Shown here one piece after another: positions 6,313 through 35,615 of a stretch of DNA of 47,034 nt (position 1 is the stretch's first letter; every line of letters starts with the position of its first letter). Source of the DNA: a virus. The position numbers and the translations under genes were made by a program. The notes under the pieces were generated by a model. That model did not search any database. It was not told where the DNA came from and was given only the letters and a program-made list of their open reading frames with translations. The stretch lies in IMG/VR virus record IMGVR_UViG_3300002131_000103, positions 1 through 47,034 of that record. One strand, written 5' to 3'.

Positions 6313-6320
6313 TATAAATA
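6313..6320 (+). promoter_or_regulatory. T4-type late promoter
   Basis: A perfect TATAAATA sits just after the helicase stop and 33 bases before the next ATG. It marks the switch from replication genes to the block of probable virion internal proteins. Confidence 0.7.
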
Positions 6321-6352: not shown

Positions 6353-7633
6353 ATGAAAACGTTTATTAAATATCTATCTGAGGCACCAGTGGTTAGCAAT
6401 TTAAGATCTTACATCAGTGATTCTCTTGGTATAACTCTTACTCAAGCGCGAGGCGTAACTCACGCTCGTTTTCCAATGAGTGGCTCAGAATCAGATCAAA
6501 TAATCGCGTTTAGAAAAATAAACATAAGAGTTGATGAATACAACAAAGCTTCTATATCCAGTAAGTATCCTAGTAAACTATTAGTGCTTACAAAATCTAT
6601 TGGCAAACTAAAAGCTGGTGATTCAATACCGTGGGTTAATAATGCTGCTGGGGCTACGAAAAGCGGTCCTCGCGTATTTACTAATAAAGCATTAACACCA
6701 GACGCTTTAGGCCTTGCCGGTAAAACACTTACTTCAGTTCAAATATATACTGCAGTCAAAATTGAGCTTGAGAAAAAGTACAACTCTGATGTTGTGCGCC
6801 AACTTATGCAGATGATGCAAGCTGTTCGAACAAAGGGCAGCAAAATAGCAATTGATACTACATTTTCAGCAGAAGATCTTCGGGTGGTTTCATCAGATTT
6901 TGGTGAGATACTTTCTGCCATATGGTCACAGACTAATCTTGGATTCAAAGCTTCATCTTTCCCTAAATCTAGTAACGAACCTCTAGTAGATTTCTATGGC
7001 GTGCGCTTTGGTATTGAATATCCTATATCAGTAAAATCTGGTGGTGGTGGTAAAGTAACAATACAAAACATTATTAATTCTATTAACAAAAAAGTTAAAA
7101 AGGCTACAGCGTTTGATTTAAAATCAGAAAAATCTCTTGCGATATTCAAAATAGTTAATGAGTTGCCAATGAAAGATCAGATGATTGAACTCCACAAATT
7201 CATGGATACAGACGCAATTAGAAAGCTTTCTAGCATCATGAACAAAAGAGTACCTGCTATTACAGTAGACACTGTAAAAGATTTTGTTGAAAAGTTTGAA
7301 GATCAAGCAGATCTTGTAGCAGCGCTTGAACCGTTTTGGAAAGCCGTAGGCACCACGCTTAAATCAAAGACTATAGAAGGCGACGACAGACTTAGACTTG
7401 TGTTGTCACCGTTGGGCGGATCTATCTATAAAATACTTAACGCTGACGAAGAAATGCGCAAGTCGCTTACACGTGTAGCTAAACAAGTTACACTTATACA
7501 AGTTAATGTTGACGTAACAAAAACAAATATTCTGTTCAAAAACAATTATTTCAAAGACTCCACATTTAGGTTTGAATGGGCTGGGTACTCTGGTAAAAAT
7601 AAACTTGGTTTTGTTATGGACAAAAAGGGATAA
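6353..7633 (+). CDS. Probable capsid-targeted internal virion protein
   Basis: The 426-residue protein has no domain I can name. Its start, MKTFIKYLSE followed by A, closely resembles the T4 capsid-targeting sequence MKTYQEFIAE-A, which directs internal proteins into the prohead and is cut after Glu by protease gp21. A region with DFYGVRFGIEYPISVKSGGG (about residues 213-232) has the flavour of a nuclease-like core (D ... E-x-S-x-K) but this is speculative. A late promoter precedes it, which agrees with a virion role. Confidence 0.65.
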   Translation: MKTFIKYLSEAPVVSNLRSYISDSLGITLTQARGVTHARFPMSGSESDQIIAFRKINIRVDEYNKASISSKYPSKLLVLTKSIGKLKAGDSIPWVNNAAGATKSGPRVFTNKALTPDALGLAGKTLTSVQIYTAVKIELEKKYNSDVVRQLMQMMQAVRTKGSKIAIDTTFSAEDLRVVSSDFGEILSAIWSQTNLGFKASSFPKSSNEPLVDFYGVRFGIEYPISVKSGGGGKVTIQNIINSINKKVKKATAFDLKSEKSLAIFKIVNELPMKDQMIELHKFMDTDAIRKLSSIMNKRVPAITVDTVKDFVEKFEDQADLVAALEPFWKAVGTTLKSKTIEGDDRLRLVLSPLGGSIYKILNADEEMRKSLTRVAKQVTLIQVNVDVTKTNILFKNNYFKDSTFRFEWAGYSGKNKLGFVMDKKG

Positions 7634-7635
7634 CA

Positions 7636-8868
7636 ATGCACAATTTTAAATCTTTTATAACAGAGTCTAAGAATACTCACATGGAGCATCTCGAAGATTC
7701 TATCTTGAACCACGGTGTAGATGGTACTCGTGACGCTATTAATTTTTTGCGCTCCCTAAGAGATATGCTCGCAGGTAATTCTAAAAGTAATGTTGATGTA
7801 ACAGTTAAATGGGACGGCGCTCCAGCTGTATTCGCTGGTATCGATCCATCTGATAAGAAGTTTTTCGTTGCTAAGAAAGGCATCTTTAATAAAAACCCAA
7901 AGGTGTATAAAACACCTGCTGAAATTGACGCCGACATAAGTTCTGGCGATTTGAATGTTAAAATGAAACTAGCCTTGGCCGAGTTACCAAAACTCGGAAT
8001 CAAAGGTGTAGTACAAGGTGATTTCCTATATGCAAAAGATGATCTCAAAGTGGTGGACATTGAAGGTGAACCGCATATTACTTTCCATCCTAATACGATT
8101 GTTTACACGGTACCTAAAGACTCAAACCTCGGTAAACAAATTCTCGGATCCAAGCTCGGTGTGGTCTGGCATACAACATACCGAGGATCAAGCTTTGAAG
8201 AAATGTCTGCAAGCTTTGGAGAGGAGATTGCTTCTAGCCTCAAGACAACGAAATCAGTCTGGTCAGTAGACGCGGTTTACAAAGATGTGTCTGGTACTGC
8301 AAACTTTACCAAAGCTGAAACTGAAAAAGTCAACGCGGTTCTTTCCGAAGCTGGTAAGTTGTTTAGAACAATCAAAAAAGAAACGTTAAACGGTATTTCT
8401 GAGAATGAAGATACTCTTATGAGAGTTAAAACCTTTGTTAATACAAAAATCCGAGCCGGTGAAAGAATTAAAAACACTCGTGCGTTTGTAAGAGATTTAG
8501 AATCTTATATTGATGCTATATACGAAAAAGAAGCAGATAAAAGAAAAACAGAAAAAGGTAAGGTTATTCAGCGTCAAAAGAAAGATGCTACCCTCGAATA
8601 CTTTAAAAGAACTCCACCTGCACAAATAGTAGCAGTGTTTGATCTGTATAACGTTATTATAGATGCAAAGCATATGATAATTCGCAAACTCGACAAAGCA
8701 AAACAAGTTGGTACATTCCTTAAGACCGCTGATGGTTATAAAGTAACAGAACAAGAAGGTTTTGTTGCTATTGATAAAATGGGTAAGAGCGCAGTAAAAT
8801 TAATCGACAGATTAGAATTTAGTAATGCAAACTTCTCAGACAAGTATATTAAAGGCTGGCAAAAATAA
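7636..8868 (+). CDS. Capsid-targeted nucleotidyltransferase-like protein (DUF6267-like)
   Basis: The 410-residue protein resembles a family I recall from cyanophages as DUF6267. The N-terminus MHNFKSFITE-S fits the capsid-targeting pattern. TVKWDGAPAVF contains K58-W-D60-G61, the KxDG signature of the covalent nucleotidyltransferase (ligase/capping) superfamily, followed by FFVAKKGIF and GVVQGDFLY, which could be later motifs. The C-terminal part has FDLYNVIIDAKHMIIRKL and AVKLIDRLEFS blocks. Ligase, nucleotidyltransferase or non-catalytic roles are all open. It directly follows the previous internal-protein candidate. Confidence 0.65.
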   Translation: MHNFKSFITESKNTHMEHLEDSILNHGVDGTRDAINFLRSLRDMLAGNSKSNVDVTVKWDGAPAVFAGIDPSDKKFFVAKKGIFNKNPKVYKTPAEIDADISSGDLNVKMKLALAELPKLGIKGVVQGDFLYAKDDLKVVDIEGEPHITFHPNTIVYTVPKDSNLGKQILGSKLGVVWHTTYRGSSFEEMSASFGEEIASSLKTTKSVWSVDAVYKDVSGTANFTKAETEKVNAVLSEAGKLFRTIKKETLNGISENEDTLMRVKTFVNTKIRAGERIKNTRAFVRDLESYIDAIYEKEADKRKTEKGKVIQRQKKDATLEYFKRTPPAQIVAVFDLYNVIIDAKHMIIRKLDKAKQVGTFLKTADGYKVTEQEGFVAIDKMGKSAVKLIDRLEFSNANFSDKYIKGWQK

Positions 8869-9626: not shown

Positions 9627-9654
9627 AAAGGTAGTCGTAAGGCTACCTTTTTTT
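9627..9654 (+). terminator. Rho-independent terminator
   Basis: AAAGGTAG (9627-9634) pairs with CTACCTTT (9643-9650). Two further inner pairs (one T-G) close a GTAA loop, and a T-run continues to 9654. It ends the DUF1127 unit. Confidence 0.9.
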
Positions 9655-9673
9655 GTTAAGTGAGGAAGAAGAA

Positions 9674-10318
9674 TTGAACATTGAAAAGAAGATGACCCAT
9701 ATATGGATTGGTCCAAACGACGCTCCTACAAAATGGATGAATACGTGGAAAGACAAACACCCCGACTGGGAATATAGTGTATTTACAGACGAAATGCTTT
9801 GGGATCGCAAGTGGAAAAACCAATCACTTATTGAAGAATATTACAAAAGAAGAAAATTTGCTGGTGCGCATGATCTTATTCGTTATGAGTTGATATATGA
9901 GCAAGGCGGGTTTTGGCCTTCAGCAGATTCTATATGCTTAGAAAGAGTTGACGAGTTATTCTCAAGTCCCGCCCATCACGCATATACCGTTTACGAGAAT
10001 GAAGTAGCAAGACCTGGATATTGTTCTCCTATTCTTGCTGCTAACTCTGACAATAATGTGTTAGGCGCAATAATTGATGAGCTACACAAATTACAGCCAC
10101 GGCAGTTAAATACCCATCCATTTATGTCTACTGGTAATCACTTCTTATCTAAGTTTCTGCCGCAGTTTGATAACGTGACTATTTGGCCATCTTATACTCT
10201 TATACCTCAATGGTACGGTCATAAGAAAAGATATGATGGACCCGGCAAAGTGTATTCTGAGCAATATTTTGGATCTTCTGGAAACCACGCTTTAAAAGGT
10301 TATAAAGAAGGCCAGTAG
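9674..10318 (+). CDS. GT32-like glycosyltransferase
   Basis: The 214-residue protein begins NIEKKMTHIWIGPN, close to the IPKKIHQIWIG opening of OCH1/capsular GT32 sugar transferases. It then has KHPDWEYSVFTDE and HDLIRYELIYEQGG, where the family nucleotide-sugar site follows. The usual YLDxD metal motif reads WPSADS, so only one Asp is kept; activity may differ. A TTG start at 9674 is chosen because AGGAAG precedes it and because the IEKKM residues align with family N-termini; ATG 9692 is the alternative. It heads a glycosyl/sulfotransferase trio that may modify virion or host surface glycans. Confidence 0.7.
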   Translation: MNIEKKMTHIWIGPNDAPTKWMNTWKDKHPDWEYSVFTDEMLWDRKWKNQSLIEEYYKRRKFAGAHDLIRYELIYEQGGFWPSADSICLERVDELFSSPAHHAYTVYENEVARPGYCSPILAANSDNNVLGAIIDELHKLQPRQLNTHPFMSTGNHFLSKFLPQFDNVTIWPSYTLIPQWYGHKKRYDGPGKVYSEQYFGSSGNHALKGYKEGQ

Positions 10319-10321
10319 ACT

Positions 10322-11014
10322 ATGTATATTTCACACAAGTACAAAATAATTTTTGTAAGAATCCCCAAGACGGCGTGTAGTAGCATAACTGATTTTTTAA
10401 TTAGGAATATTAAAGACTCTGATGCAGTTCATTCTGGTGTAGATGATAGTAAAATAGCACCTACTATTGTTGATGACACAAAACAAAAACAAGTAAACCC
10501 GCTACTTAGATCTACCTCTAACAAATATGTTCATTATACTTTAGAAGATATTATAAACGAAGGTTTAATTAAAGCAACTTCTTTAAACCAGTATAGATGC
10601 ATTGGTGTAATACGAGACCCAGTTGACAGACAAAAAAGTATGTACTATTTCAGAAAGAAATGGAATTTAAGGACAAAACCATCACTCCAAGATTATAAAA
10701 ATATTACTATAAATAATTGTACGATGAGATTGTCTCCAATCACTGGAATACAACAGTCTGATTTTCTTATGTATAACGGTGTTTCTTATGGCAATATGTG
10801 GTTATATGAAAATATAGAAAAAGAATTACCTGCTCTTATGAAAGATCTTGGGTTAAACTCAGATCATAAGTTACCAAAGCACAAATCTGGAAATAGAAAA
10901 ACAGGCGAGTTTAATTTCGACGAAGAAGTAATGGATTCTTTAAAAGCGCACTATCATAAAGATTTTAAATTATATAATGAACTAAAGCTGGGGAAACAAC
11001 ATGCTAGTAACTAA
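10322..11014 (+). CDS. PAPS-dependent sulfotransferase (Sulfotransfer_2-like)
   Basis: The 230-residue protein carries IIFVRIPKTACSSITDFL (9-26), the 5'-phosphosulfate loop of carbohydrate sulfotransferases with Lys16 as the likely catalytic residue. It also has GVIRDPVDRQKSMYYF, the 3'-phosphate-binding motif. Such enzymes transfer sulfate from PAPS to sugars. It lies three bases after the GT32-like gene and overlaps the GT25-like gene, so the three probably act on one glycan. The true acceptor is unknown. Confidence 0.8.
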   Translation: MYISHKYKIIFVRIPKTACSSITDFLIRNIKDSDAVHSGVDDSKIAPTIVDDTKQKQVNPLLRSTSNKYVHYTLEDIINEGLIKATSLNQYRCIGVIRDPVDRQKSMYYFRKKWNLRTKPSLQDYKNITINNCTMRLSPITGIQQSDFLMYNGVSYGNMWLYENIEKELPALMKDLGLNSDHKLPKHKSGNRKTGEFNFDEEVMDSLKAHYHKDFKLYNELKLGKQHASN

Positions 11015-11693
11015 AGCGTATATATTAAAGATTGATTCACCAATATCAAATGAATATGCTAAAGTATGCGCAGACTCTTGTGATAATGTAGGATTACCTT
11101 GGACATATTTTAACGGTTATCAGAACCAAACTGGTAAATCAGCAAACATGCAGGTTGGTATTAAAGGATTAAACACTGAGCCATACGAGTTTTTAACAAA
11201 TCCAACACCATCACAAAAAGCCATGTGTACAACTGCAGGTCACATTCATATATGGAAAGCTATATCAGAAGGTCCTGATGAGGCTGCAGTGATACTTGAG
11301 CATGATGCTGTAATGTTACACCCTATGACTCTCAGTGTACCAGACGATCAGATACTAGTTCTCGGATATAAGTTAGTAAACATATCTAGATATGACCATA
11401 AAAAAGCAGGGCCTCCTAAAGAGTTAATTCCTATACAAGGGCACGAAGGTGCTCACGCATATGCTATGACTCGAAAAATGGCTAACTTTCTTATACAAGA
11501 AATAGAAACAAACGGTGTTAAAAGCGCAATTGATAATGCTTATTTTCTTAGAGGACAAAGAAGAACATCGGCTGCTTTGTCTATAGTATCACCAACTCCT
11601 GCAGTAGGTTGGTTAAGAGAATCTACTATTTGGGGAAGATCAGCTACTAAAAACTACGAATTTATACCTTCTTTTCTAGAAAATTATAAATAA
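11001..11693 (+). CDS. GT25-like glycosyltransferase
   Basis: The 230-residue protein starts with KAYILKIDSP and a conserved C-x-x-S-C region, then GHIHIWKAISEG and VILEHDAVML, where EHDAV is the likely metal/sugar-nucleotide site of family 25 LPS-type transferases. GHEGAHAYAMTRKMANFL also fits that family. Overlap with the sulfotransferase (14 bases) supports a shared pathway. A late promoter motif coincides with its last codons and serves the next gene. Confidence 0.65.
   Translation: MLVTKAYILKIDSPISNEYAKVCADSCDNVGLPWTYFNGYQNQTGKSANMQVGIKGLNTEPYEFLTNPTPSQKAMCTTAGHIHIWKAISEGPDEAAVILEHDAVMLHPMTLSVPDDQILVLGYKLVNISRYDHKKAGPPKELIPIQGHEGAHAYAMTRKMANFLIQEIETNGVKSAIDNAYFLRGQRRTSAALSIVSPTPAVGWLRESTIWGRSATKNYEFIPSFLENYK
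11686..11693 (+). promoter_or_regulatory. T4-type late promoter
   Basis: Perfect TATAAATA, 43 bases before the large internal-protein gene. It ends with the stop codon of the GT25-like gene. Confidence 0.65.
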
Positions 11694-11736: not shown

Positions 11737-13590
11737 ATGGCTAAGCCAGAAACAAAAAAGAAAATGAAAGGCTTCAAAGAATTTGATGCCTCTAAGTATA
11801 TTGATTTAGAGCCAACACTAGCAGAAGCAGTTAAGTCTAACACTGTGGTTATGACTTTTGGCAGAATGAATCCTATGACTATAGGTCATGAAAAACTTGT
11901 AGAGAAATTACTCAAAGAAGCTCAAACACGTAAAGCTGAGCCAATGGTTTTTCTTTCTCATTCTTCTGGTGCTAAGACAAAAACTGGCAAAGGTTCAGTT
12001 AATAGTGATCCTCTATCGTATGATGATAAGATTAAATACGCTATTAAAGCGTTTGGTCCTGTAGTTAAAAAATCCCCTCTTAAAATCTTGATGTTGATTG
12101 CGAAATCTTTACAAGGTAAATATAAGAACTTAGTAATGGTTGCTGGTTCAGATCGGGTTGACCAATACAAAGAATTGCTAAACAAATATAACGGCAAAGA
12201 TTATACCTTTGATTCTATCGAGGTTGTTTCTGCTGGACAAAGAGATCCAGATGGCGAAGGAGCCGCTGGCATGTCCGGAACTAAAATGCGTGAATACGCT
12301 CAGGCGGGTGATCTTAAGAAATTCGCAAGCGGTTTACCATCAGGTCTTAAATCAAAAGCGCAGGAAATCATGGATAAAGTAGCTAACGCAATAAACCCTT
12401 CAATGAATGAAGAGGCTGAAGTTTTAGACGAAGTACTAGATCGTATGCAAAGACGCAAACGTGGTATTTCAATGAGGAAAGCTCGTTTTAAAATTAAACG
12501 CGGTAGAGAAAAAGCTGCTAAAAGAACTGCTTCACAAGATGTGTTAAAGCGAAGAGCTAGGAAAGCAGCGATAAATATTTTCAAGATGAAATTCGCTAAG
12601 AACAGACGGTATGCCGATCTTTCTCCTGGCGAAAAAGAAGTAATCGATAAGCGTATTGCAAAAATTAATAAGCGCCGCATTGAGCAGATTGCTCGCAAGC
12701 TTTTACCTAAAGTTAAGGCAAAAGAAAGAGAACGTCGTAAAGCTTCAATGGCTGGTGGATCTTCTAAGAATGAAAGCATTAACGAAGCATCTATTAAAGA
12801 CCAAAGAATTTTGCAAAAACCACACATGCTATTAGATAAAGACAAGAAGCCTAAGGTTGACGGGCGCTTCCGTATGTTTAAGAAGAAATCTGTTAACGAA
12901 AGCGTTGAAGATCTTTCAGCAGAAGTGCTTGACTTAATGGAAGCAACTGAACAATTCAACGAAGCTACTATCCCTGATGGCAAGACTGCTATGACTAAGC
13001 GTGAGCCATTAACAAAGAGCGACACTAAAACTCTGAAAAAATTGCGTGACATGATGGCTAAAGAAAAGAAGCCGGTGTCTCAGATGTCTCCTAAAGAAAA
13101 GGCTGATAATGACAAGAGGCGTAAAGAGTATAACGCGTACCAAAAGTCTAAGCGTAACGAAGAAGTATCTGAAATCGAAGAAGGTGGACTTTGGGCTAAT
13201 ATCCATGCTAAGCGCAAGCGTATTAAGAATGGTTCTGGAGAATCAATGAAGAAGCCTGGATCTAAAGGTGCTCCAACAGATCAAGACTTTAAAGATGCGT
13301 CTGAAAGTATAGATGAAGCAACGTTCAAAGTAGATATAGAAGGTTTACCATCTATGTTTGTTGATGCTGGCAGCGCATCTCAAGTTAAAAAGACTTTGCG
13401 CCAAATGCTTAAAAAGCCTGATGATAAAATTAAGAGTGTTGAACGTGTACAGCCCACAGAAGTTAAAAAACATTTCCGCTTAAAATCTCTTGGTAAAGAG
13501 GAAGAAATGGACGAAGAATCTGCTGGCGCTGGTGAAGAAGGTACTAACGAGTTAGTAAACAAATTCAAGAAAGACACTCCCAATGCTTAA
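11737..13590 (+). CDS. Large internal protein with HxGH-type nucleotidyltransferase domain and serial cleavage sites
   Basis: This 617-residue protein has an N-terminal nucleotidyltransferase fold. FGRMNPMTIGH (41-51) is a TxGH variant of the HIGH motif, and GMSGTKMREYA (178-188) matches the ISSTxxR loop; adenylyl- or cytidylyl-transfer is possible. After residue 230 it is basic and repetitive. Sites of the prohead protease type ([LIVMF]-x-E followed by A/S) recur at Glu30, Glu350, Glu388, Glu402, Glu409 and Glu527, so it may be cut into several internal peptides. The start region (FKEFDASKYIDLEPTLAE-A) loosely fits a targeting segment. A late promoter precedes it. Confidence 0.7.
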   Translation: MAKPETKKKMKGFKEFDASKYIDLEPTLAEAVKSNTVVMTFGRMNPMTIGHEKLVEKLLKEAQTRKAEPMVFLSHSSGAKTKTGKGSVNSDPLSYDDKIKYAIKAFGPVVKKSPLKILMLIAKSLQGKYKNLVMVAGSDRVDQYKELLNKYNGKDYTFDSIEVVSAGQRDPDGEGAAGMSGTKMREYAQAGDLKKFASGLPSGLKSKAQEIMDKVANAINPSMNEEAEVLDEVLDRMQRRKRGISMRKARFKIKRGREKAAKRTASQDVLKRRARKAAINIFKMKFAKNRRYADLSPGEKEVIDKRIAKINKRRIEQIARKLLPKVKAKERERRKASMAGGSSKNESINEASIKDQRILQKPHMLLDKDKKPKVDGRFRMFKKKSVNESVEDLSAEVLDLMEATEQFNEATIPDGKTAMTKREPLTKSDTKTLKKLRDMMAKEKKPVSQMSPKEKADNDKRRKEYNAYQKSKRNEEVSEIEEGGLWANIHAKRKRIKNGSGESMKKPGSKGAPTDQDFKDASESIDEATFKVDIEGLPSMFVDAGSASQVKKTLRQMLKKPDDKIKSVERVQPTEVKKHFRLKSLGKEEEMDEESAGAGEEGTNELVNKFKKDTPNA

Positions 13591-13801
13591 CTTCGGAATG
13601 TTTTGTGAGAGTATTAATATAAAAGCCGGTGATACTGTTCGTATTAAAAAACAGTTTGCTGATTCTCCTGCTGAAGCCAAAATCTTATACGTTGTTAAAG
13701 AGTTAAGAACTCCACGTGTTCTTATTGCCCCGAAGGTTTGGAAAAGCGGTATCGCTCCAACTGAATCTGTACAAATGACAATGATTGAACCGGCTAAGTA
13801 A
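13583..13801 (+). CDS. Small protein with capsid-targeting-like N-terminus
   Basis: The 72-residue product begins MLNFGMFCE-S, matching the pattern of the neighbouring targeting sequences (aromatic at 4 and 7, Glu at the cut site). The rest resembles a small beta barrel (AGDTVRIKK ... AKILYVVKEL ... VLIAPKVW). It overlaps the preceding gene by 8 bases and the following gene starts one base after its stop. Function unknown; a packaged structural or DNA-binding peptide is possible. Confidence 0.6.
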   Translation: MLNFGMFCESINIKAGDTVRIKKQFADSPAEAKILYVVKELRTPRVLIAPKVWKSGIAPTESVQMTMIEPAK

Positions 13802-13802
13802 T

Positions 13803-14360
13803 ATGAAAACTTTTAAGAAGTACATTGCTGAAGATACACTAAATGAAAGCGCACTTAAAGCTTTACGAGTTGCAACTGCAGCACATTCTGGTCAATCTAG
13901 GAAGAGTGGTGGAGAGTATATCGATCATCCAAAAGAAGTTGCTAGGTTCGTAAAGCAGTTTAAAAAATCTAATAATCTTTCTGCAATGATCCAAGCAGCA
14001 TATTTACATGATACATTGGAAGATACCGATACTACTTACGAAGACTTGGTTAAACAGTTTGGCGCATTGGTTGCAGATATGGTGCAGGCATTGACTACAG
14101 ACAAGGCAGCTTCAGATGCTATTGGTAAAGGCGAATATATTGCTAATAAAATGGCTAAGATGTCCAGCTGGTCATTGGTAGTAAAGCTAGCAGATCGTCT
14201 TGCTAATGTACAAGATATTGATACAAGACCCACTGACTTTCAAAAGCGATACGCTGACCAAACAAGATTAGCATTAGCCCGTCTTAGAAAAGACAGGTAT
14301 TTAAGTAAAACTCATAATAAGATTATGTCTGCAATCGAAAAAAAGATAAAAGAGTATTAA
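13803..14360 (+). CDS. SpoT/MESH1-type HD hydrolase with capsid-targeting N-terminus
   Basis: Residues 20-185 form a single-domain (p)ppGpp hydrolase. AAHSGQSRKSGGEYIDHP gives His28, YLHDTLEDT gives His69-Asp70 and the Glu-Asp pair, and KLADRLANV gives Asp131, so all four manganese ligands are present. There is no synthetase domain. The N-terminus MKTFKKYIAE is nearly the T4 capsid-targeting peptide, so the enzyme may be packaged and injected to lower the host alarmone at once. The residue after Glu10 is Asp, unlike the usual Ala/Gly/Ser, so cleavage is uncertain. ATG 13803 is chosen over an in-frame upstream ATG at 13785 because of the motif and spacing. Confidence 0.85.
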   Translation: MKTFKKYIAEDTLNESALKALRVATAAHSGQSRKSGGEYIDHPKEVARFVKQFKKSNNLSAMIQAAYLHDTLEDTDTTYEDLVKQFGALVADMVQALTTDKAASDAIGKGEYIANKMAKMSSWSLVVKLADRLANVQDIDTRPTDFQKRYADQTRLALARLRKDRYLSKTHNKIMSAIEKKIKEY

Positions 14361-14361
14361 T

Positions 14362-14670
14362 ATGAAAACTTTTAAAACATTCTGTGAAGAAAAAGATTCT
14401 CGGTTAGATAAAGCCGGTGTCGAAGGTTTTAATAAAGCAAAGCGCACACCTGGACATAAGACTAAAAGCCACATTGTTGTTGCAAAAGACGGTGATAAGA
14501 TTAAGACTATTCGGTTTGGTGAGCAAGGTGCTTCTACAGCCGGTGATCCTAAAGAAGGCGAATCGGATAAGATGAAAGCTAAGCGCAAGTCATTTAAGGC
14601 TCGCCACGGCAAGAATATAGCAAAAGGTAAAATGAGTGCTGCTTATTGGGCAGATAAAGAAAAGTGGTAA
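14362..14670 (+). CDS. Conserved small basic protein (DUF5872-like)
   Basis: This 102-residue protein has the blocks AKRTPGHKTKSHIVVAK, IKTIRFGEQG, KRKSFKARHGKNI and SAAYWADKEKW. I recall these from a widespread phage family (DUF5872 or similar) of unknown role. The start MKTFKTFCEE again resembles the capsid-targeting peptide, suggesting packaging with DNA. The many Lys and Arg fit DNA binding inside the head. It follows the alarmone hydrolase by one base. Confidence 0.7.
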   Translation: MKTFKTFCEEKDSRLDKAGVEGFNKAKRTPGHKTKSHIVVAKDGDKIKTIRFGEQGASTAGDPKEGESDKMKAKRKSFKARHGKNIAKGKMSAAYWADKEKW

Positions 14671-14678
14671 TCGCTTTT

Positions 14679-14686
14679 TATAAATA
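14679..14686 (+). promoter_or_regulatory. T4-type late promoter
   Basis: Perfect TATAAATA, 30 bases before the second large internal-protein gene and preceded by a T-run. Confidence 0.7.
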
Positions 14687-14715: not shown

Positions 14716-16536
14716 ATGAAACGTTTTAAAACTCACTTAGTGGAAGCGCAATTAAACGAAGAAAATTGTAGCTGCTGCGATAATAAAATTGATGCTAACG
14801 GCAAGTGTGGCTGCGGCCCCGATTGCGAACACTGTGGTGGTCAACACGATGTTGATGAAGGCAGTTGCGGAACGGTTAACGCTAGTAAGAAAAACGAATC
14901 ATCTGCTCACCCCGAAAAGCATATTAAAATGGCTATCGGTATTGCGTCAGATCCGCGCTATAAAGGTGGTAATATGACCGGTGCGCATAAAGCTATTGAG
15001 AAACTTTCTAAAGGTTTAGCTTCTCATCCTAAAGTTGCTGCTGTTCTTCGTCGTCAAAATGAAGAGCTCAGCGAAGCTAAAAAAGCAAAGCCTGGTCATA
15101 ATGCTGCGGTAATGTCAAAAAACATTAGCAAAGTTCTTTCGGCTGTTAAAAAAGAAGAATTTGAACTTGATGAAGCAGTTGAGCTAGACGAATTTGGTGG
15201 TCGTGGTATTTCTGCGGCTGATAAAGAAAATCTACGTCGTAGAATTAAAGATAAAAAGAAAAAAGAATCTGTTGAACTTGATGAAATTTCTATGGGCAAA
15301 ATGGCTGCTTATGCTCCAAATGCCGTCAAGTCAAGAAATGATGCCAAAGCGGCAACACACTCTGCCGATTCAAATAGAAGAGCTGATGCTAAAAAAACTC
15401 TTGCCAAGCGTAAAGCTGGTGCTGACAACTACAACAAGAAAATGTGGGGCTATGGTAATGTAGCACCTACTAAAGAATCAGCAATGGATGAAGATGTAGA
15501 TTCTAAAAAGTTTGATGTATATAAAAAACATATGAAAACTCATAACTTAGATGAACCTACTGTTCGGATGGCTCATGATAATCCAGATCATGGAGAATCA
15601 AAACGAATGATGAAGAACCCAAAGTATTCTAAAGGTTTAGAATTGTACAAGGCTTCAATGAAAGAGGCAGCACAACTCGAAGACACGCAGATTGATGAAA
15701 TCTCAAATAAAACAATTGATTCTTACCGCAAAAAAGCATATGGTCAATATAAAACATCTGCAGATAAAAAAGGCGATTCAGTATATTTTGGTTCAGCTAA
15801 ACCCGAAACTCGTGCTAAACACGCTGCAAGATATGATAAAAGACATAAAGGTATTGGTTCTGCAGATAAAAGAACTATGGCACGTGATCCTGACAATTTT
15901 AAATTCGGTAAAATCGGTAGAGATGGTCATGATCCAAAAAATGACAGTATGTCAAGTAAGTCAGTAGACGATATGAGAAAAATTAAAGGTTATAGCAATA
16001 AACAAGAAGATAATCTTGGTGAAGCTGCACCAAAAATCAAGCAAGATAATATCAAAGCTATCCGTGGTGCAGATAACACGCATGATAACGCAATGGGTAG
16101 AACAGCAACCGGCCGTAAAAAACCAGTACGTACAATGACTTCTACTCAAAAATCTTTAGCTAGCATGCGCGAAGAACTTGACGAAGATATTATCAACAAT
16201 TTAACTGCTGCATATATCAATGAAAACAATATTGATATAGTAGACATTGAAAATATGACTGAAGAAGAGCTCAATGAGTTAATCGGTAAGGCAATTGGTG
16301 GTGCATTTAAATTAGGTGCTAAAGCTATTGTGGGTTCTGCTCGTTTAGCTAAAAAAGGCATAAACAGAATGTCTACTTCTGGTAGAGCAGATGCTGCTGA
16401 GAAAAAAGCGGACAAGTTTGATAATAATGTTAAAGCAAAAAAAGCTGTAATTGATAAGAAAGCTAGAGACCGTGATAGAATTAAAGCTGCTGCAGATCGT
16501 CTAAGAGATGCTAAAAAAGCAGCGCAGAACAAGTAA
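14716..16536 (+). CDS. Polyprotein-like internal virion protein with cysteine-rich head
   Basis: The 606-residue protein opens MKRFKTHLVE-A, a capsid-targeting match, then a Cys-rich stretch (9 Cys between residues 18 and 51) that could bind zinc. Candidate prohead-protease sites lie after Glu10, Glu120, Glu153, Glu190, Glu317, Glu328, Glu436 and Glu490, mostly as LDE, IDE or LSE. Repeated ELDEIS/QIDEIS segments near residues 186 and 326 introduce similar basic stretches. Composition is Lys/Ala-rich and low complexity. It probably yields several packaged peptides that accompany the DNA; no enzyme domain is seen. Confidence 0.7.
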   Translation: MKRFKTHLVEAQLNEENCSCCDNKIDANGKCGCGPDCEHCGGQHDVDEGSCGTVNASKKNESSAHPEKHIKMAIGIASDPRYKGGNMTGAHKAIEKLSKGLASHPKVAAVLRRQNEELSEAKKAKPGHNAAVMSKNISKVLSAVKKEEFELDEAVELDEFGGRGISAADKENLRRRIKDKKKKESVELDEISMGKMAAYAPNAVKSRNDAKAATHSADSNRRADAKKTLAKRKAGADNYNKKMWGYGNVAPTKESAMDEDVDSKKFDVYKKHMKTHNLDEPTVRMAHDNPDHGESKRMMKNPKYSKGLELYKASMKEAAQLEDTQIDEISNKTIDSYRKKAYGQYKTSADKKGDSVYFGSAKPETRAKHAARYDKRHKGIGSADKRTMARDPDNFKFGKIGRDGHDPKNDSMSSKSVDDMRKIKGYSNKQEDNLGEAAPKIKQDNIKAIRGADNTHDNAMGRTATGRKKPVRTMTSTQKSLASMREELDEDIINNLTAAYINENNIDIVDIENMTEEELNELIGKAIGGAFKLGAKAIVGSARLAKKGINRMSTSGRADAAEKKADKFDNNVKAKKAVIDKKARDRDRIKAAADRLRDAKKAAQNK

Positions 16537-25592: not shown

Positions 25593-26720
25593 ATGAGTGT
25601 TTTTGATGTCAAAAACCGTGTTGACCACACTTCAGTCGCGTCTTTCTTAGATCCAACTGGTGGGCCAACAATTCAACGATATGACACGTTAAAGTATAAG
25701 CAGTTTGATCAGTTAACAGACAAGCAACTAGGTTTCTTTTGGCGGCCCGAAGAAGTAGATATCTATCAAGATGCGAAAGACTTCAAAGCTTTAACTGAAC
25801 ACGAGCAGCATATTTTTACTTCTAACTTGAAACGTCAAATTCTCCTTGATTCTGTTCAAGGTCGAGCCCCTGCAGAAAGCTTTGGCTCGATAGTTTCTTT
25901 ACCTGAGCTAGAAAACTGGATTATTACTTGGACATTCTCTGAGACAATTCATAGCAGGTCTTACACTCACATTATTCGTAACATCTATTCAAATCCTTCT
26001 AAGATCTTTGATGAAATGCTTAATGTGCAAGAAATTGTAGATTGCGCTGATTCTATTTCAGGTTACTACGACGCTCTTATCGAGATGGCTGGCTACTATA
26101 ATCTTTTAGGCCTTGGTACACATACAGTTAACGGTAAGAAAGTTGTAGTTGATCTATATGAATTAAAGAAACTGTTGTACCTTTGCTTAATGAGTGTTAA
26201 CATTCTTGAAGGTGTTCGTTTCTATGTATCGTTTGCTTGTTCTTGGGCATTTGCAGAATTAAAGAAAATGGAAGGTAATGCTAAAATCATTAAGCTTATT
26301 GCCCGTGATGAAAACCTTCACCTTGCTTCTACTCAAATGATGCTTAAACTACTAAAACAAGAAGATCCAGACTTTGTAAAGATCGCAGAAGAAACAGAAG
26401 CAGAATGCACTCAAATGTTTGTTGACGCTGTTGATCAAGAAAAAGAATGGGCAAAGTATTTGTTTAAAGACGGCAGTATGATTGGTTTGAATACAGAGTT
26501 GCTTTCTCAATATATTGAGTTCATCGCAACGCGCCGCATGGTCAACGTAAAGCTTACTTCGCCTTACAATATTAAAAGCAATCCGCTACCGTGGACTCAA
26601 AAATGGATTTCTGGAGCTGATGTACAAGTTGCTCCTCAAGAAACAGAAATTACTTCTTATATTCAAGGTGGCACAAAACAAGACGTATCTTCTGATACAT
26701 TCAGGGGGTTTTCATTATAA
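25593..26720 (+). CDS. nrdB: Class Ia ribonucleotide reductase small subunit NrdB
   Basis: The 375-residue beta subunit holds the diiron-tyrosyl radical. [10 protein letters not shown] supplies Glu, His and the radical Tyr in the E-x-x-H-x-x-x-Y arrangement, and [11 protein letters not shown] supplies the second ExxH pair. [10 protein letters not shown] and [12 protein letters not shown] are also typical. AAGGAAATTTAG precedes the ATG. Its TAA overlaps the hemA ATG (TAATG), so subunit and ALA synthase synthesis are coupled. Confidence 0.96.
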
Positions 26721-27916
26721 TGTATGAAGAATATTTTAACGCTGTAATAAAAGATTTTAAAAAAGATGGCCGATATAGAATATTTAATGATATTCTTAGA
26801 GAGCGTGGTGCTTTCCCTGAAGCTATTTGGTACGGAAAATACGCACCAAAGAATATCGTAAATTGGTGTTCAAATGATTATCTAGGTATGGGCCAAAATG
26901 AATATGTGATTAGCGCTATGCACACTGCACTAGATCAATCAGGCTCTGGCTCTGGTGGTACTCGTAATATTGGTGGCACATCTCAATACCACGTAACACT
27001 AGAACGAGAGCTTGCAAGTCTACATAAAAAAGATGCAGCTTTGCTATTTACAAGCGCTTATGTTGCTAACGAATGGACACTTATCGCATTAAGTAAAATT
27101 ATTCCTAATATTTGTTTTGTTTCTGATAGTAAAAACCATGCATCTTTAATCGTTGGTATGTCACATAGCCGTGCAGATAAAATGATTTTTGAACATAATA
27201 ATTTAGACGAACTAGAAGAAGCGCTGTTTCAATGCAATATAAATAACCAAATTCCTTGTATTGTATTTGAATCTGTTTATTCTATGGATGGCGATATCAG
27301 TCCTATGGAAGCTATCTGTGATCTCGCAGATAAATACAACGCAATGACATATATCGATGAAGTTCACGCTGTTGGATTATACGGTCCACAAGGCGGAGGT
27401 TTTTGTGAAAAGTTAGGATTATCAGAAAGGATCGATATTCTAAATGGAACCCTCGGAAAAGCATTTGGAGTCCAAGGTGGCTATATTGTCGGTAACAGCA
27501 ATATCGTTGATGCTATTAGGTGTGTTGCTAGTGGGTTCATATTTACGACATCAACAAGCCCAGTCATCTGCGCAGGAGCTCTTGCATCAATCAGATACCT
27601 CCGCGACCATTCTTCCTTAAGAGATGCACATCAAGAAAAAGCTGTAAAACTTAAACAAATGCTTGCAGAAGCTGGTATCCCAGTGCATGAAGACGCGTGT
27701 ACGCATATTGTGCCAGTAATGGTCAATGATGCGTTTAAATGTAAAACTGCTAGTGATCGTCTTCTGAATGAATACGGTATTTACATTCAAGCAATTAACG
27801 CTCCTACTGTAGAAGCTGGAACTGAAAGACTAAGAATCGCACCTACACCTTACCACGACGATGTAATGATGATACAATTAGTAGAAGCATTGAAAGAAGT
27901 GCTGAAGGATGGATAG
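26720..27916 (+). CDS. hemA: 5-Aminolevulinate synthase (ALAS, Shemin pathway)
   Basis: ALAS condenses glycine with succinyl-CoA to 5-aminolevulinate, the committed step of tetrapyrrole synthesis in alphaproteobacteria. The 398-residue protein matches bacterial ALAS throughout: [69 protein letters not shown] (Asp214, His217) and [14 protein letters not shown] with PLP Lys247, then [14 protein letters not shown] rather than KBL or BioF is favoured by [16 protein letters not shown] and the C-terminal [10 protein letters not shown] block. It is full length and translationally coupled to nrdB. Phage ALAS has been reported from aquatic metagenomes. Confidence 0.96.
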
Positions 27917-32553: not shown

Positions 32554-33099
32554 ATGAGAGATATTTGGCTGATAAGTGATACACACTTTGGGCATGAAAA
32601 CATTCTTAAGTTTCGTGATGGAGGTGAAAATGGTCCATTGATTCGTGGAAATTTGTTTTCGTCTGTTGAAGAAATGGATGAGCACATGATCCAGCAATGG
32701 AACAAGACAGTTAAACCCGGCGATATCGTGTACCATCTTGGTGACGTGTTTATGGGACCGAAAGAAAAGTTTCTTGAAAACTTTGCGCGTCTTCATGGTG
32801 CTAAGAGGCTTGTTGTCGGTAACCATGATGATATTAAGTTTATGGTTCAGCACAAACTGTTTCAAAAGATTATGATGTGGAGAATGTTGCCAGAGTTTGG
32901 AATGCTTTTAACACATACTCCACAACATGAAACTACCATGTACGAAGGTCGATTTAGTAATTTTCCAGGAACTCCTTTGAACGTGCATGGTCACATCCAC
33001 CAGAATCCTAGTCCTACACCTATGCACAAATGTGTATGTGTTGAGCATATAGACTATACACCTATTCACATCGAGGATGTAAGAGATGGACGCAAATAA
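32554..33099 (+). CDS. Calcineurin-like metallophosphoesterase
   Basis: The 181-residue protein shows the five metal motifs in order: SDTHFGH (Asp9, His11), HLGDVF, VVGNHDD, LLTHTP and VHGHIH. Families of this size include phosphodiesterases and nucleotide or RNA phosphatases; the substrate cannot be told. It lies three bases after the SleB-like gene and overlaps hemE by 14 bases, so it is coexpressed with the heme genes. Confidence 0.85.
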   Translation: MRDIWLISDTHFGHENILKFRDGGENGPLIRGNLFSSVEEMDEHMIQQWNKTVKPGDIVYHLGDVFMGPKEKFLENFARLHGAKRLVVGNHDDIKFMVQHKLFQKIMMWRMLPEFGMLLTHTPQHETTMYEGRFSNFPGTPLNVHGHIHQNPSPTPMHKCVCVEHIDYTPIHIEDVRDGRK

Positions 33100-34066
33100 A
33101 TTTACTAATGCTGTTAATCGAGTAGAGCAACCGTGTCCTCCTATTTGGATGATGAGACAAGCTGGCCGATATCAGCCAACATACATGGAAATAAAAGAAT
33201 CGTACAATTTTGAGCAAATGTGTAAACTACCACAGATTGCTTCTAAAGTTGCTATGTTACCTATTACACAATTTGACTTCGATGCTGCTATTTTATTTAG
33301 CGATATTCTTTGGCATGTCGAGGGGCTGGGTCTTCCTTTAAAGTTTGACCCAGCCCCTAAGTTTGAATTTCACCTTAACGAAGATAATTGGAAAGACCAC
33401 ACTGACTTCGACAAAGCAATGGATCACTTATCTTTTCAACAGTCTGCTATGGAACTTACTCGAGAAAAGCTACCTAGCAATAAGAGTCTTATCGGTTTTG
33501 TTGGTGGCCCTTGGAGTGTATTGAACTATGCACTAGGCGGTAATAAAGTAAGCAATGACTTTAAAACAACGTATCTTAAAGATGTTATTATTCCACTAAT
33601 GGCTAGAAGCATCCGAGCACAGAAAGTTGCTGGCGCCGAAGTCGTAATGATATTTGATAGTGGCTTGCGCAATTGTAGCAAAAACTATTATAATAATACG
33701 TATCTCCCAATGTTAGAAGAACTTGCAGATATTGGTAACGTAGGATATTATTCACGTGATTTACCGAAAGGTAGTCTGCCGAAAGTAAAGAAAATGAATT
33801 GGTGTGGTATTGGTATTGATTCTACACAAGATTTAGCTAAGACATTGAAGACTCACACTAACGGATTTGTTCAAGGTAACTTTGATGAACACCATATGTT
33901 ATTGGAAAATAAGTTATATCATTACGAATTAGATAAGTGGCTCGATAGTTTAGACGGAGTTAATACTGCAGGTTGGATCTGTGGGCTTGGTCACGGCATA
34001 CATAAGACAACACCAAACGCTAATGTTAAATACTTTATTGATAAAGTAAGGAATAGGTTTGAATAA
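33086..34066 (+). CDS. hemE: Uroporphyrinogen decarboxylase HemE
   Basis: HemE removes four carboxyls from uroporphyrinogen to give coproporphyrinogen. The 326-residue protein has signature 1 (PPIWMMRQAGRYQPTY, with Arg24 and Arg28), FSDIL with the essential Asp73, signature 2 (GFVGGPWSVL) and C-terminal GLGHGIHKTTPN. It is only slightly shorter than bacterial HemE (about 340-355) and looks complete. It overlaps the phosphoesterase and hemF. A perfect 12-bp inverted repeat lies within codons for residues 79-91. HemE accepts both type I and III isomers. Confidence 0.95.
   Translation: MDANKFTNAVNRVEQPCPPIWMMRQAGRYQPTYMEIKESYNFEQMCKLPQIASKVAMLPITQFDFDAAILFSDILWHVEGLGLPLKFDPAPKFEFHLNEDNWKDHTDFDKAMDHLSFQQSAMELTREKLPSNKSLIGFVGGPWSVLNYALGGNKVSNDFKTTYLKDVIIPLMARSIRAQKVAGAEVVMIFDSGLRNCSKNYYNNTYLPMLEELADIGNVGYYSRDLPKGSLPKVKKMNWCGIGIDSTQDLAKTLKTHTNGFVQGNFDEHHMLLENKLYHYELDKWLDSLDGVNTAGWICGLGHGIHKTTPNANVKYFIDKVRNRFE
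33321..33358 (+). other. Perfect 12-bp GC-rich inverted repeat inside hemE
   Basis: AGGGGCTGGGTC (33321-33332) and GACCCAGCCCCT (33347-33358) are exact reverse complements around a 14-base A/T-rich loop (33333-33346) that itself contains the palindrome CTTTAAAG. It is by far the most GC-rich patch in the gene, yet the reading frame stays open. In mRNA it would form a very stable hairpin about 240 bases after the hemE start. Confidence 0.75.
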
Positions 34067-34860
34067 TGTTTGATTTATATGCTGAGTGGTTTAAAACACT
34101 CCAAGACGATATTTCGCATACGTTAGCAAGTATAGATCACGATTGCCCAATGGAAGTTCATTCAGACACCGACGGCAAGAAAGGCTGGACTCAGCAGCAT
34201 ATGACTATACACGGTGATGTGTTCGAGAAAGGAACTGTAAACTTCTCTAAGATCGAATCTGAATTTGATCCAAAGTTTGCAAAAGAAATTCCAGGTACTG
34301 AAGAGCACGATAGATATCAAGCTACCGGCATTAGTGTTGTTCTGCATCCTTGGAATCCTCATGCCCCAGCGATGCATTTCAATACACGTTATCTGAAAAC
34401 AAGTACTAAAGAATGGTTTGGTGGCGGCATGGATGTTACTCCGTGTATGCCGTTTGATACTAAATCATATCATAAGAAATTAGAAAACATTTGCGACTAC
34501 TACAATCTTGAATACTATCCAAAGTTTAGTAAAGCGTGTGACGAATATTTCTACTTACCACACCGTAAAGAAACTCGTGGTGTTGGTGGAATATTCTTTG
34601 AGTACCATGATCCGAAAGATATGAGCTTTGAATTTGTACAAGATATTGGTCGAACATTTAATGATCTAATTAGAAGTATTATTACACCTACACTAAATAT
34701 GGGTTACAGTGATATAGATAGAGAAATACTTGAAATTAAACGTGGAAGATATGTTGAGTTTAATCTTTTGTATGATAGAGGAACTCGGTTTGGGTTTAAA
34801 ACAGGAGGTAACATGGATGCAATTCTTATGAGTCTTCCTCCAACAGTAAGGTGGGCATAA
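34066..34860 (+). CDS. hemF: Oxygen-dependent coproporphyrinogen III oxidase HemF
   Basis: HemF oxidatively decarboxylates coproporphyrinogen III to protoporphyrinogen IX using O2. The 264-residue protein shows FEKGTVNFSKIES, ISVVLHPWNPHAPAMHFNTR, EWFGGGMDVTPCMPFD, CDEYFYLPHRKETRGVGGIF and the C-terminal block GRYVEFNLLYDRGTRFGFKT with LMSLPPTVRW, all hallmark segments. Size is close to bacterial HemF (about 300). The O2-dependent type suits an aerobic marine host. Start and stop overlap hemE and hemC (TAATG at both junctions). Confidence 0.96.
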   Translation: MFDLYAEWFKTLQDDISHTLASIDHDCPMEVHSDTDGKKGWTQQHMTIHGDVFEKGTVNFSKIESEFDPKFAKEIPGTEEHDRYQATGISVVLHPWNPHAPAMHFNTRYLKTSTKEWFGGGMDVTPCMPFDTKSYHKKLENICDYYNLEYYPKFSKACDEYFYLPHRKETRGVGGIFFEYHDPKDMSFEFVQDIGRTFNDLIRSIITPTLNMGYSDIDREILEIKRGRYVEFNLLYDRGTRFGFKTGGNMDAILMSLPPTVRWA

Positions 34861-35615
34861 TGACAACCAGAGTACTAAGAATTGGTGTTAGAGGTAGCAA
34901 GTTAGCGTTAGCATATGCAGAACTTGCAAGAAAATCAATAGCGTGTCATACTGAGATAGTTATTATTAACACTATAGGAGATTTAAACCCCGATGTCCCA
35001 GTTCACGAAATCGGCGGCAAAGGTGTCTTCTGTAGTGCGTTAGAAATGTCTTTGATTGATAACGAAATCGATGTTGCTGTACATAGCTTAAAGGATATGC
35101 CTGGAGATTGGGAACACCCAGATCTAGAAGTTACTGCAACACTAAAACGTAATAGCCCATACGATGTAATTATTGGAAATGTATTTGACGGATTTACATT
35201 AGGCACAAGCAGCCCTAGACGTACAGCACAATTAGAAGAATTGTATTCTGCAATGAATGTAAAAATTAAGCATATCAGAGGTAATATCGATACTCGCTTA
35301 GCAAAACTCGACGCTGGTGAATACGATGCTATTGTTTTAGCAGAAGCCGGTTTACAAGCACTGGGTATTGAAAGAACATATAAAATACTGCCAATTATTC
35401 CTGCGATTGGTCAGGGTACTATAGCTTTACAATGCAGGAAATCAGATATTGATTCTGTTGCTATAGTAAAACGCGCCGACCACAATTTAACCCACCGTCA
35501 ATCTAATTTAGAACGCGCTTTACTTAAAGGTCTTATGGGTGACTGCAACACACAAATTGCTGCACACGCACAAGGTGATAATCCAATTACAATGCGCACA
35601 GTCTTTTACAAATAA
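34860..35615 (+). CDS. hemC: Porphobilinogen deaminase HemC, C-terminally short
   Basis: HemC joins four porphobilinogens into hydroxymethylbilane. The 251-residue protein has LRIGVRGSKLALAYAEL, IGGKGVFCSALEMSL, DVAVHSLKDMP, LGTSSPRRTAQLEEL, IRGNIDTRLAKLD, PAIGQGTIALQCR and the dipyrromethane cofactor Cys in LMGDCNTQIAAH. E. coli HemC has 313 residues; this one ends about 25 residues after the cofactor Cys, losing much of domain 3. The active-site regions are intact, so activity is plausible but stability may differ. ATG 34860 overlaps the hemF stop; a GTG nine bases earlier is less likely. Confidence 0.94.
   Translation: MTTRVLRIGVRGSKLALAYAELARKSIACHTEIVIINTIGDLNPDVPVHEIGGKGVFCSALEMSLIDNEIDVAVHSLKDMPGDWEHPDLEVTATLKRNSPYDVIIGNVFDGFTLGTSSPRRTAQLEELYSAMNVKIKHIRGNIDTRLAKLDAGEYDAIVLAEAGLQALGIERTYKILPIIPAIGQGTIALQCRKSDIDSVAIVKRADHNLTHRQSNLERALLKGLMGDCNTQIAAHAQGDNPITMRTVFYK

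Follow-up and report, generated by a model that had tools for sequence, protein, structure and literature searches.

The T4 proteins IPI, IPII, IPIII and Alt bear a short N-terminal tag, with aromatic residues at positions 4 and 7 in the IPs, and a Glu site handled by a gp21-type protease; the T4 internal proteins combine diverse cargo behind a common tag with a TATAAATA late promoter. According to mutagenesis of IPIII, residues 4 and 7 are the main ones for targeting, and residues 8 and 10 are those that matter for processing (review, PMC9026906). Phage enzymes acting on alarmones are also on record. PaSpo from Salmonella phage SSU5 and the HD-alarmone PDease of jumbo phages are alarmone-type hydrolases proposed or shown to oppose alarmones or toxSAS (PMC11559606, PMC7824862), and untagged phage alarmone hydrolases are already known (PMC7824862); we know of no description of a head-targeting tag for PaSpo or the jumbo-phage enzyme. 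RelA/SpoT domains also occur in Polyvalent and MuF proteins, which are multidomain, virion-embedded and thought to be injected, and injection of RelA/SpoT synthetase domains has been proposed (PMC5512222). Finally, cyanophage MazG, a nucleotide pyrophosphohydrolase, had been credited with lowering ppGpp in marine hosts; unlike the protein described below, it is not an HD_4 enzyme, and hydrolysis of (p)ppGpp by MazG has been disproved (PMC6850273).

The locus considered here lies in a viral sequence of 47,034 nucleotides (IMG/VR record IMGVR_UViG_3300002131_000103; hereafter the window), a 47-kb fragment without head genes, attributed to a marine phage of the T4-like kind. Its ORF at 13803-14360 (+ strand, ATG start, 185 aa) encodes a MESH1/SAH-type hydrolase behind a capsid-targeting-like (CTS) N-terminus. 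Compared with T4 internal proteins, the cargo is a MESH1-type hydrolase which, in relatives, is also found embedded in a polyprotein, flanked there by Phi-x-E sites. Whereas the RelA/SpoT domain of polyvalent and MuF proteins is a synthetase (NTase) domain, here a hydrolase is found in a putative CTS/gp21 system, as the single effector domain of its chain, where Polyvalent proteins have several per polypeptide. Neither a packaged alarmone hydrolase nor such a polyprotein form was found in the open-licence literature searched; the author of the preliminary description of this DNA knew of no alarmone hydrolase described as a packaged T4-type internal protein. T4-type internal proteins and SAH enzymes are known; the CTS-tagged, putative head-cargo alarmone hydrolase and its polyprotein form appear to be new. 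If correct, this would be the first alarmone hydrolase as virion cargo. It would also offer a testable case of a preloaded enzyme that neutralises either the stringent response or toxSAS immunity, in phages encountered repeatedly across many environmental metagenomes.

Assignment of the enzyme relies on sequence and on a predicted fold. The ORF matches Pfam HD_4 (61.1 bits for a cut-off of 27.2, E=1e-16), phrog_990 'metal-dependent phosphohydrolase' (E=2e-28) and, over its first 140 positions, TIGR00691 spoT_relA (E=2e-26, below the full-length cut-off of that model), and it can be aligned to human and fly MESH1, SpoT, Rel and SAH structures; all these agree on the reality of the ORF. HD_4 is present without a synthetase domain, and 185 aa falls within the size of SAHs (about 170-190 aa). 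In an AlphaFold2 model built from 33 phage homologs (pLDDT 84), residues 11-185 superimpose on human MESH1 (3nr1_A; Z=20.2, rmsd 2.8, 167 residues), and the model also resembles the P. aeruginosa SAH (Z=18.6) and SpoT (Z=17.1). Human MESH1, P. aeruginosa SAH and C. glutamicum RelH are alike to the hydrolase in fold (Z 17-20), size and H/HD/ED/D site. Because the structural alignment with MESH1 begins only around residue 11-12 of the model, these matches describe a minimal hydrolase of the alarmone type, preceded by an additional N-terminal segment. This segment, 15 residues long and probably removable, together with a putative phage head-cargo operon, distinguishes the protein from MESH1 and the SAHs.

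The preliminary description had claimed a complete MESH1/SpoT site made of His28, His69-Asp70 and Asp131. Completeness, His69-Asp70 and Asp131 hold, while His28 has to be replaced. In the alignment with 3nr1, it is His42 of the hydrolase (in YIDHP) that pairs with the metal ligand His35 of MESH1 (in YINHP); His28, although invariant in the family, pairs with another MESH1 histidine and is not a metal ligand. We take the MESH1 ligands to be H35, H61, D62 and D122. The title of PDB entry 9chy, 'D66K', fits an equivalence of MESH1 D66 with D74 of the hydrolase. Alignment and conservation place the His42 codon at 13926-13928, the HD motif ligands His69-Asp70 at 14007-14012, the catalytic ED motif Glu73-Asp74 at 14019-14024 and the Asp131 ligand at 14193-14195, all on the + strand. 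The predicted Mn ligands H42, H69, D70 and D131 and the ED pair E73 and D74 are therefore all in place; with R33 and N135 they make up the full predicted site, and these eight residues are invariant in 33/33 phage homologs, down to 51% identity.

The first ten residues, MKTFKKYIAE (13803-13832, + strand), contain F4 and Y7 at the targeting positions and I8 and E10 at the processing positions, as in IPIII. T4 IPII and IPIII begin with MKTYQEFIAE, and IPI with MKTFKEF. Hence the targeting-like peptide pointed out in the preliminary description is present. Of the 68 ORFs of the window, 6 have the pattern M..[FY]..[FYH] at their first ATG, all of them between 6353 and 14716; among internal Met positions, it is seen at 3 of 331, which places the tag beyond chance. 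A control scan of T4 returned eight matches, with IPI, IPII and IPIII all among them.

Relatives in IMG/VR are numerous (75 close ones and some 20 others with 51-77% identity, or about 90 at 51-95% overall) but do not represent independent observations. The segment preceding the enzyme varies in sequence and length (MKTFKKYIAEDT, MLNFKSHMNEP, MKRFKEFTSHD, MQSFSAYT, MMKFQT and longer forms). All 39 unique tags keep Phe4. Complete relatives have Y, F or, in some, His at position 7, a result that is partly by construction since starts with [FYH] at position 7 were selected for the tally. Four sequences fell outside this filter, three from 5'-truncated contigs and L035 (KRFRTY, with no start codon there). 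Glu10 is missing in some relatives. The tag is absent from the homologs of Vibrio phage pv27, BcepSaruman and Erwinia phage Y3, which, unlike the tagged hydrolase, begin at the enzyme, and from those of Bacilli MAGs; several untagged homologs start within a few residues of the position following Glu15. As judged from these comparisons, the tag is an add-on to the enzyme. Absence of the protease alone cannot account for the untagged state, because pv27 encodes a gp21-family protease and nevertheless has an untagged homolog. Among the best 60 of the 69 phage records with matches, no tagged homolog came from an isolate. In a second clade (L155-L169, 60-62% identity), the tagged hydrolase has another gene neighbourhood, often beside a tagged 'MKSFTRFITE' gene, a setting which suggests that cargo genes move as cassettes.

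Two Phi-x-Glu sites close the putative propeptide, IAE at residues 8-10 and LNE at residues 13-15. The second (L13-N14-E15; 13839-13847, + strand) is proposed as a prohead-protease site. A [LMF]NE motif directly precedes the first helix of the enzyme in 72/72 loci where this region is readable, with leucine codons that vary (CTT, CTA, TTA, CTC), and E15 is invariant in the 33-sequence alignment down to 51% identity, the forms LRE, LDE and INE appearing at 51-62%. The model has pLDDT values below 50 at residues 11-13. Alternatively, Glu15 could be a helix N-cap. From the starts of the untagged homologs and from the MESH1 alignment, which begins at 11-12, the mature hydrolase is predicted to comprise residues 16-185 (13848-14357, + strand).

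The hydrolase gene belongs to an operon in which the genes starting at 11737, 13583, 13803 and 14362 overlap or abut. On the + strand, a T4-type late promoter motif TATAAATA (11685-11692) precedes this operon (11737-14670). Its first gene (11737-13590; phrog_3041) encodes a CTS-type nucleotidyltransferase with many Phi-x-E sites. A small CTS-like protein, MLNFGMF... (13583-13801), identified from the ORF list and the tag scan, overlaps the upstream gene and abuts that of the hydrolase, and another, MKTFKTFCEE (14362-14670; phrog_7595), follows the hydrolase directly. Further TATAAATA motifs are found on the same strand before the gene at 14716 (motif at 14679-14686) and before a CTS gene at 6353 (motif at 6313-6320). 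The former gene (14716-16536) encodes a CTS-like protein, MKRFKTHLVEAQLNE, in which Phi-x-E sites recur; the latter (6353-7633) encodes MKTFIKYLSEA, of 426 aa and no family, and is followed by the gene of the CTS-like protein MHNFKSFITES (7636-8868, + strand; DUF6267, phrog_455). The DUF6267 protein has relatives in more than 450 phage records, mostly of cyanophages, and, as read by eye, a KWDGAP and other motifs resembling a ligase/nucleotidyltransferase core. At 9653-11693, the block of CTS genes is interrupted by glycosyltransferase-like, sulfotransferase and GT25-like genes.

The window contains no unusual number of TATAAATA motifs (10, for 5.7 +/- 2.4 expected), so that their weight resides only in position and strand. 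In G002, a record of a relative, the motif stands upstream of homologs of gp18, gp19, gp21, gp22 and gp23 (gp21 identified by PF03420, the others read by us from N-terminal sequences and gene order). It is thus very probably the late promoter of the lineage. Four relatives (L042, L066, L069 and L170) have their own TATAAATA 28-37 bp before the hydrolase gene, and the promoter motif suggests that the hydrolase would be transcribed late. PF03420 was detected in 3/11 of the relatives' records searched (G001, G002 and G011), most of the others being fragments. Next to gp21 in G002, and under a late promoter, is a gene for a protein starting MKTFKNLIAE; by eye, this CTS-tagged protein has segments in common with the 14716 product. 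Downstream neighbours of the hydrolase gene are tagged in 31/50 loci, for a background of about 1%.

A late promoter and a core-type tag would also suit an enzyme that enters the prohead core and acts there, or late in the producing cell, with no active delivery; the T4 core proteins gp67 and gp68 are indeed cut up or lost and not delivered (PMC9026906). The hydrolase has a strictly conserved catalytic site and, unlike such sacrificial proteins, no Phi-x-E inside its enzyme domain in 45 unique sequences, although this last result is non-significant alone, as shuffling expects 0.94 per sequence. We regard action confined to the core or the producing cell as unlikely.

In several relatives, the hydrolase is part of a longer chain. 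The 1201-aa ORF of L153 (3808-7398) reads as a head-cargo-like polyprotein. In it, the hydrolase is flanked by two modules, before it a nucleotidyltransferase module akin to the 11737 product and behind it one akin to the 14362 product, which is the order of the separate genes in the window. The joints carry Phi-x-E sites: LDE|SALSAL marks where the hydrolase begins, and VTE|SVDE| follows it. In L154 and L136, the hydrolase lies within other chains with similar borders; as in L153, the enzyme of L154 is placed between Phi-x-E sites in a chain that also holds the neighbouring nucleotidyltransferase modules. The L153-type polyprotein may be a general design of such phages. Along these lines, widespread uncultured T4-type phages would possess a modular head-cargo system, in which a MESH1-type hydrolase, a nucleotidyltransferase and other enzymes are swapped between CTS-tagged genes and gp21-cleaved polyproteins, and are injected to cancel alarmone or toxSAS defences before phage expression; we give this extended proposal an even chance. 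Protease-type sites around each enzyme would broaden the idea of T4 internal proteins, so far one of small single proteins, to processed multi-enzyme cargo.

A link to virions is provided by the neighbouring gene. In cyanophage S-SM1, its protein has a homolog in the product of SSM1_190 (T4-GC190; E=1.6e-34 to the 11737 protein), which begins with the same type of tag, MKKFSAFLNEA, and mass spectrometry identified T4-GC190 among the proteins of purified S-SM1 virions (Sullivan et al. 2010, PMC3037559). In a related phage, a CTS-type tagged protein of the same neighbourhood has thus been proven to belong to the virion. It could be argued that the CTS resemblance is coincidental or translational and that the hydrolase is an ordinary cytoplasmic auxiliary metabolic enzyme, since the motif is short and five of its eight T4 matches open genes other than those of the IPs. 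Such a fortuitous origin is, however, very improbable in view of the conservation by position of F4 and Y/F/H7 amid drift elsewhere, the invariant Phi-x-E before the enzyme, the polyprotein fusions, the excess of tagged neighbours in most loci, and the virion homolog with its similar tag. Taken together, the tag determinants, the conserved Glu, the untagged homologs, the polyprotein fusions, the late operon and the gp21 genes of relatives mean that head packaging and gp21 processing, which we infer by comparison, are well supported. The preliminary description had called the hydrolase capsid-tagged and possibly injected. Head targeting is strongly supported by the IPIII determinants, the invariant Glu and the virion homolog of the neighbour; ejection with the DNA is proposed by likeness to the T4 IPs and Alt.

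The protein is probably a precursor form, from which a T4-type internal head protein with a MESH1-type cargo would arise. The precursor would be made late in infection and docked in the prohead core by its N-terminal tag, through the aromatic residues at positions 4 and 7. A gp21-type prohead protease would then cut after Glu10 and/or Glu15, and the resulting enzyme of about 170 aa would remain in the head and reach the next host together with the DNA. In that cell, it would most likely remove a 3'-linked pyrophosphate, its substrate being (p)ppGpp and/or (p)ppApp, or else tRNA pyrophosphorylated by a toxSAS. An alarmone- or toxSAS-based response would thereby be pre-empted before phage genes are expressed.

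This raises the question of the substrate. The preliminary description proposed that injection could suppress the stringent response in starved marine cells before any phage gene is expressed; loss of (p)ppGpp was found to help some phages and to hinder others in Pseudomonas putida screens (PMC12814882). The packaged and injected enzyme may instead serve counter-defence, by stripping the 3'-end pyrophosphate that toxSAS (CapRel, PhRel, FaRel2) add to tRNA, or by degrading (p)ppApp, and not by lowering (p)ppGpp in starved cells. PaSpo, the SAH of phage SSU5, reverses the modification that FaRel2 introduces into tRNA (PMC11559606), the best-understood T4 internal protein, IPI, is injected and acts in counter-defence (PMC3012670), nucleotide-based defences were proposed as the targets of jumbo-phage HD-alarmone enzymes (PMC7824862), and a matching SAH structure, 7smg, is that of a (p)ppApp hydrolase. 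Given PaSpo and IPI, a counter-immune purpose is no less plausible than suppression of the stringent response. On the other hand, no toxSAS can be linked to the host, MESH1, the closest structural match, also hydrolyses ppGpp, and the substrate of an SAH-family enzyme is not readable from its sequence. We give a purely counter-defensive role slightly less than an even chance, and consider tRNA-pyrophosphate removal and (p)ppApp hydrolysis, on one side, and (p)ppGpp hydrolysis, on the other, as equally open.

As to the host, assignment from metagenomic bins was rejected. A copy of the same phage (L180, DGBH01000105.1; 99.97% identity over 3.7 kb) was binned in a Bacteroidetes MAG, probably by mis-binning, while an 88%-identical relative is found in a Rhodobacteraceae MAG. 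Because these bins conflict, we consider binning unreliable and name no host. Elsewhere in the window, a set of heme-pathway genes (26720-27916, 33086-34066, 34066-34860 and 34851-35615) encodes an Aminotran_1_2 aminotransferase resembling 5-aminolevulinate synthase, which we presume to be ALAS, a uroporphyrinogen decarboxylase, a coproporphyrinogen oxidase and a porphobilinogen deaminase.
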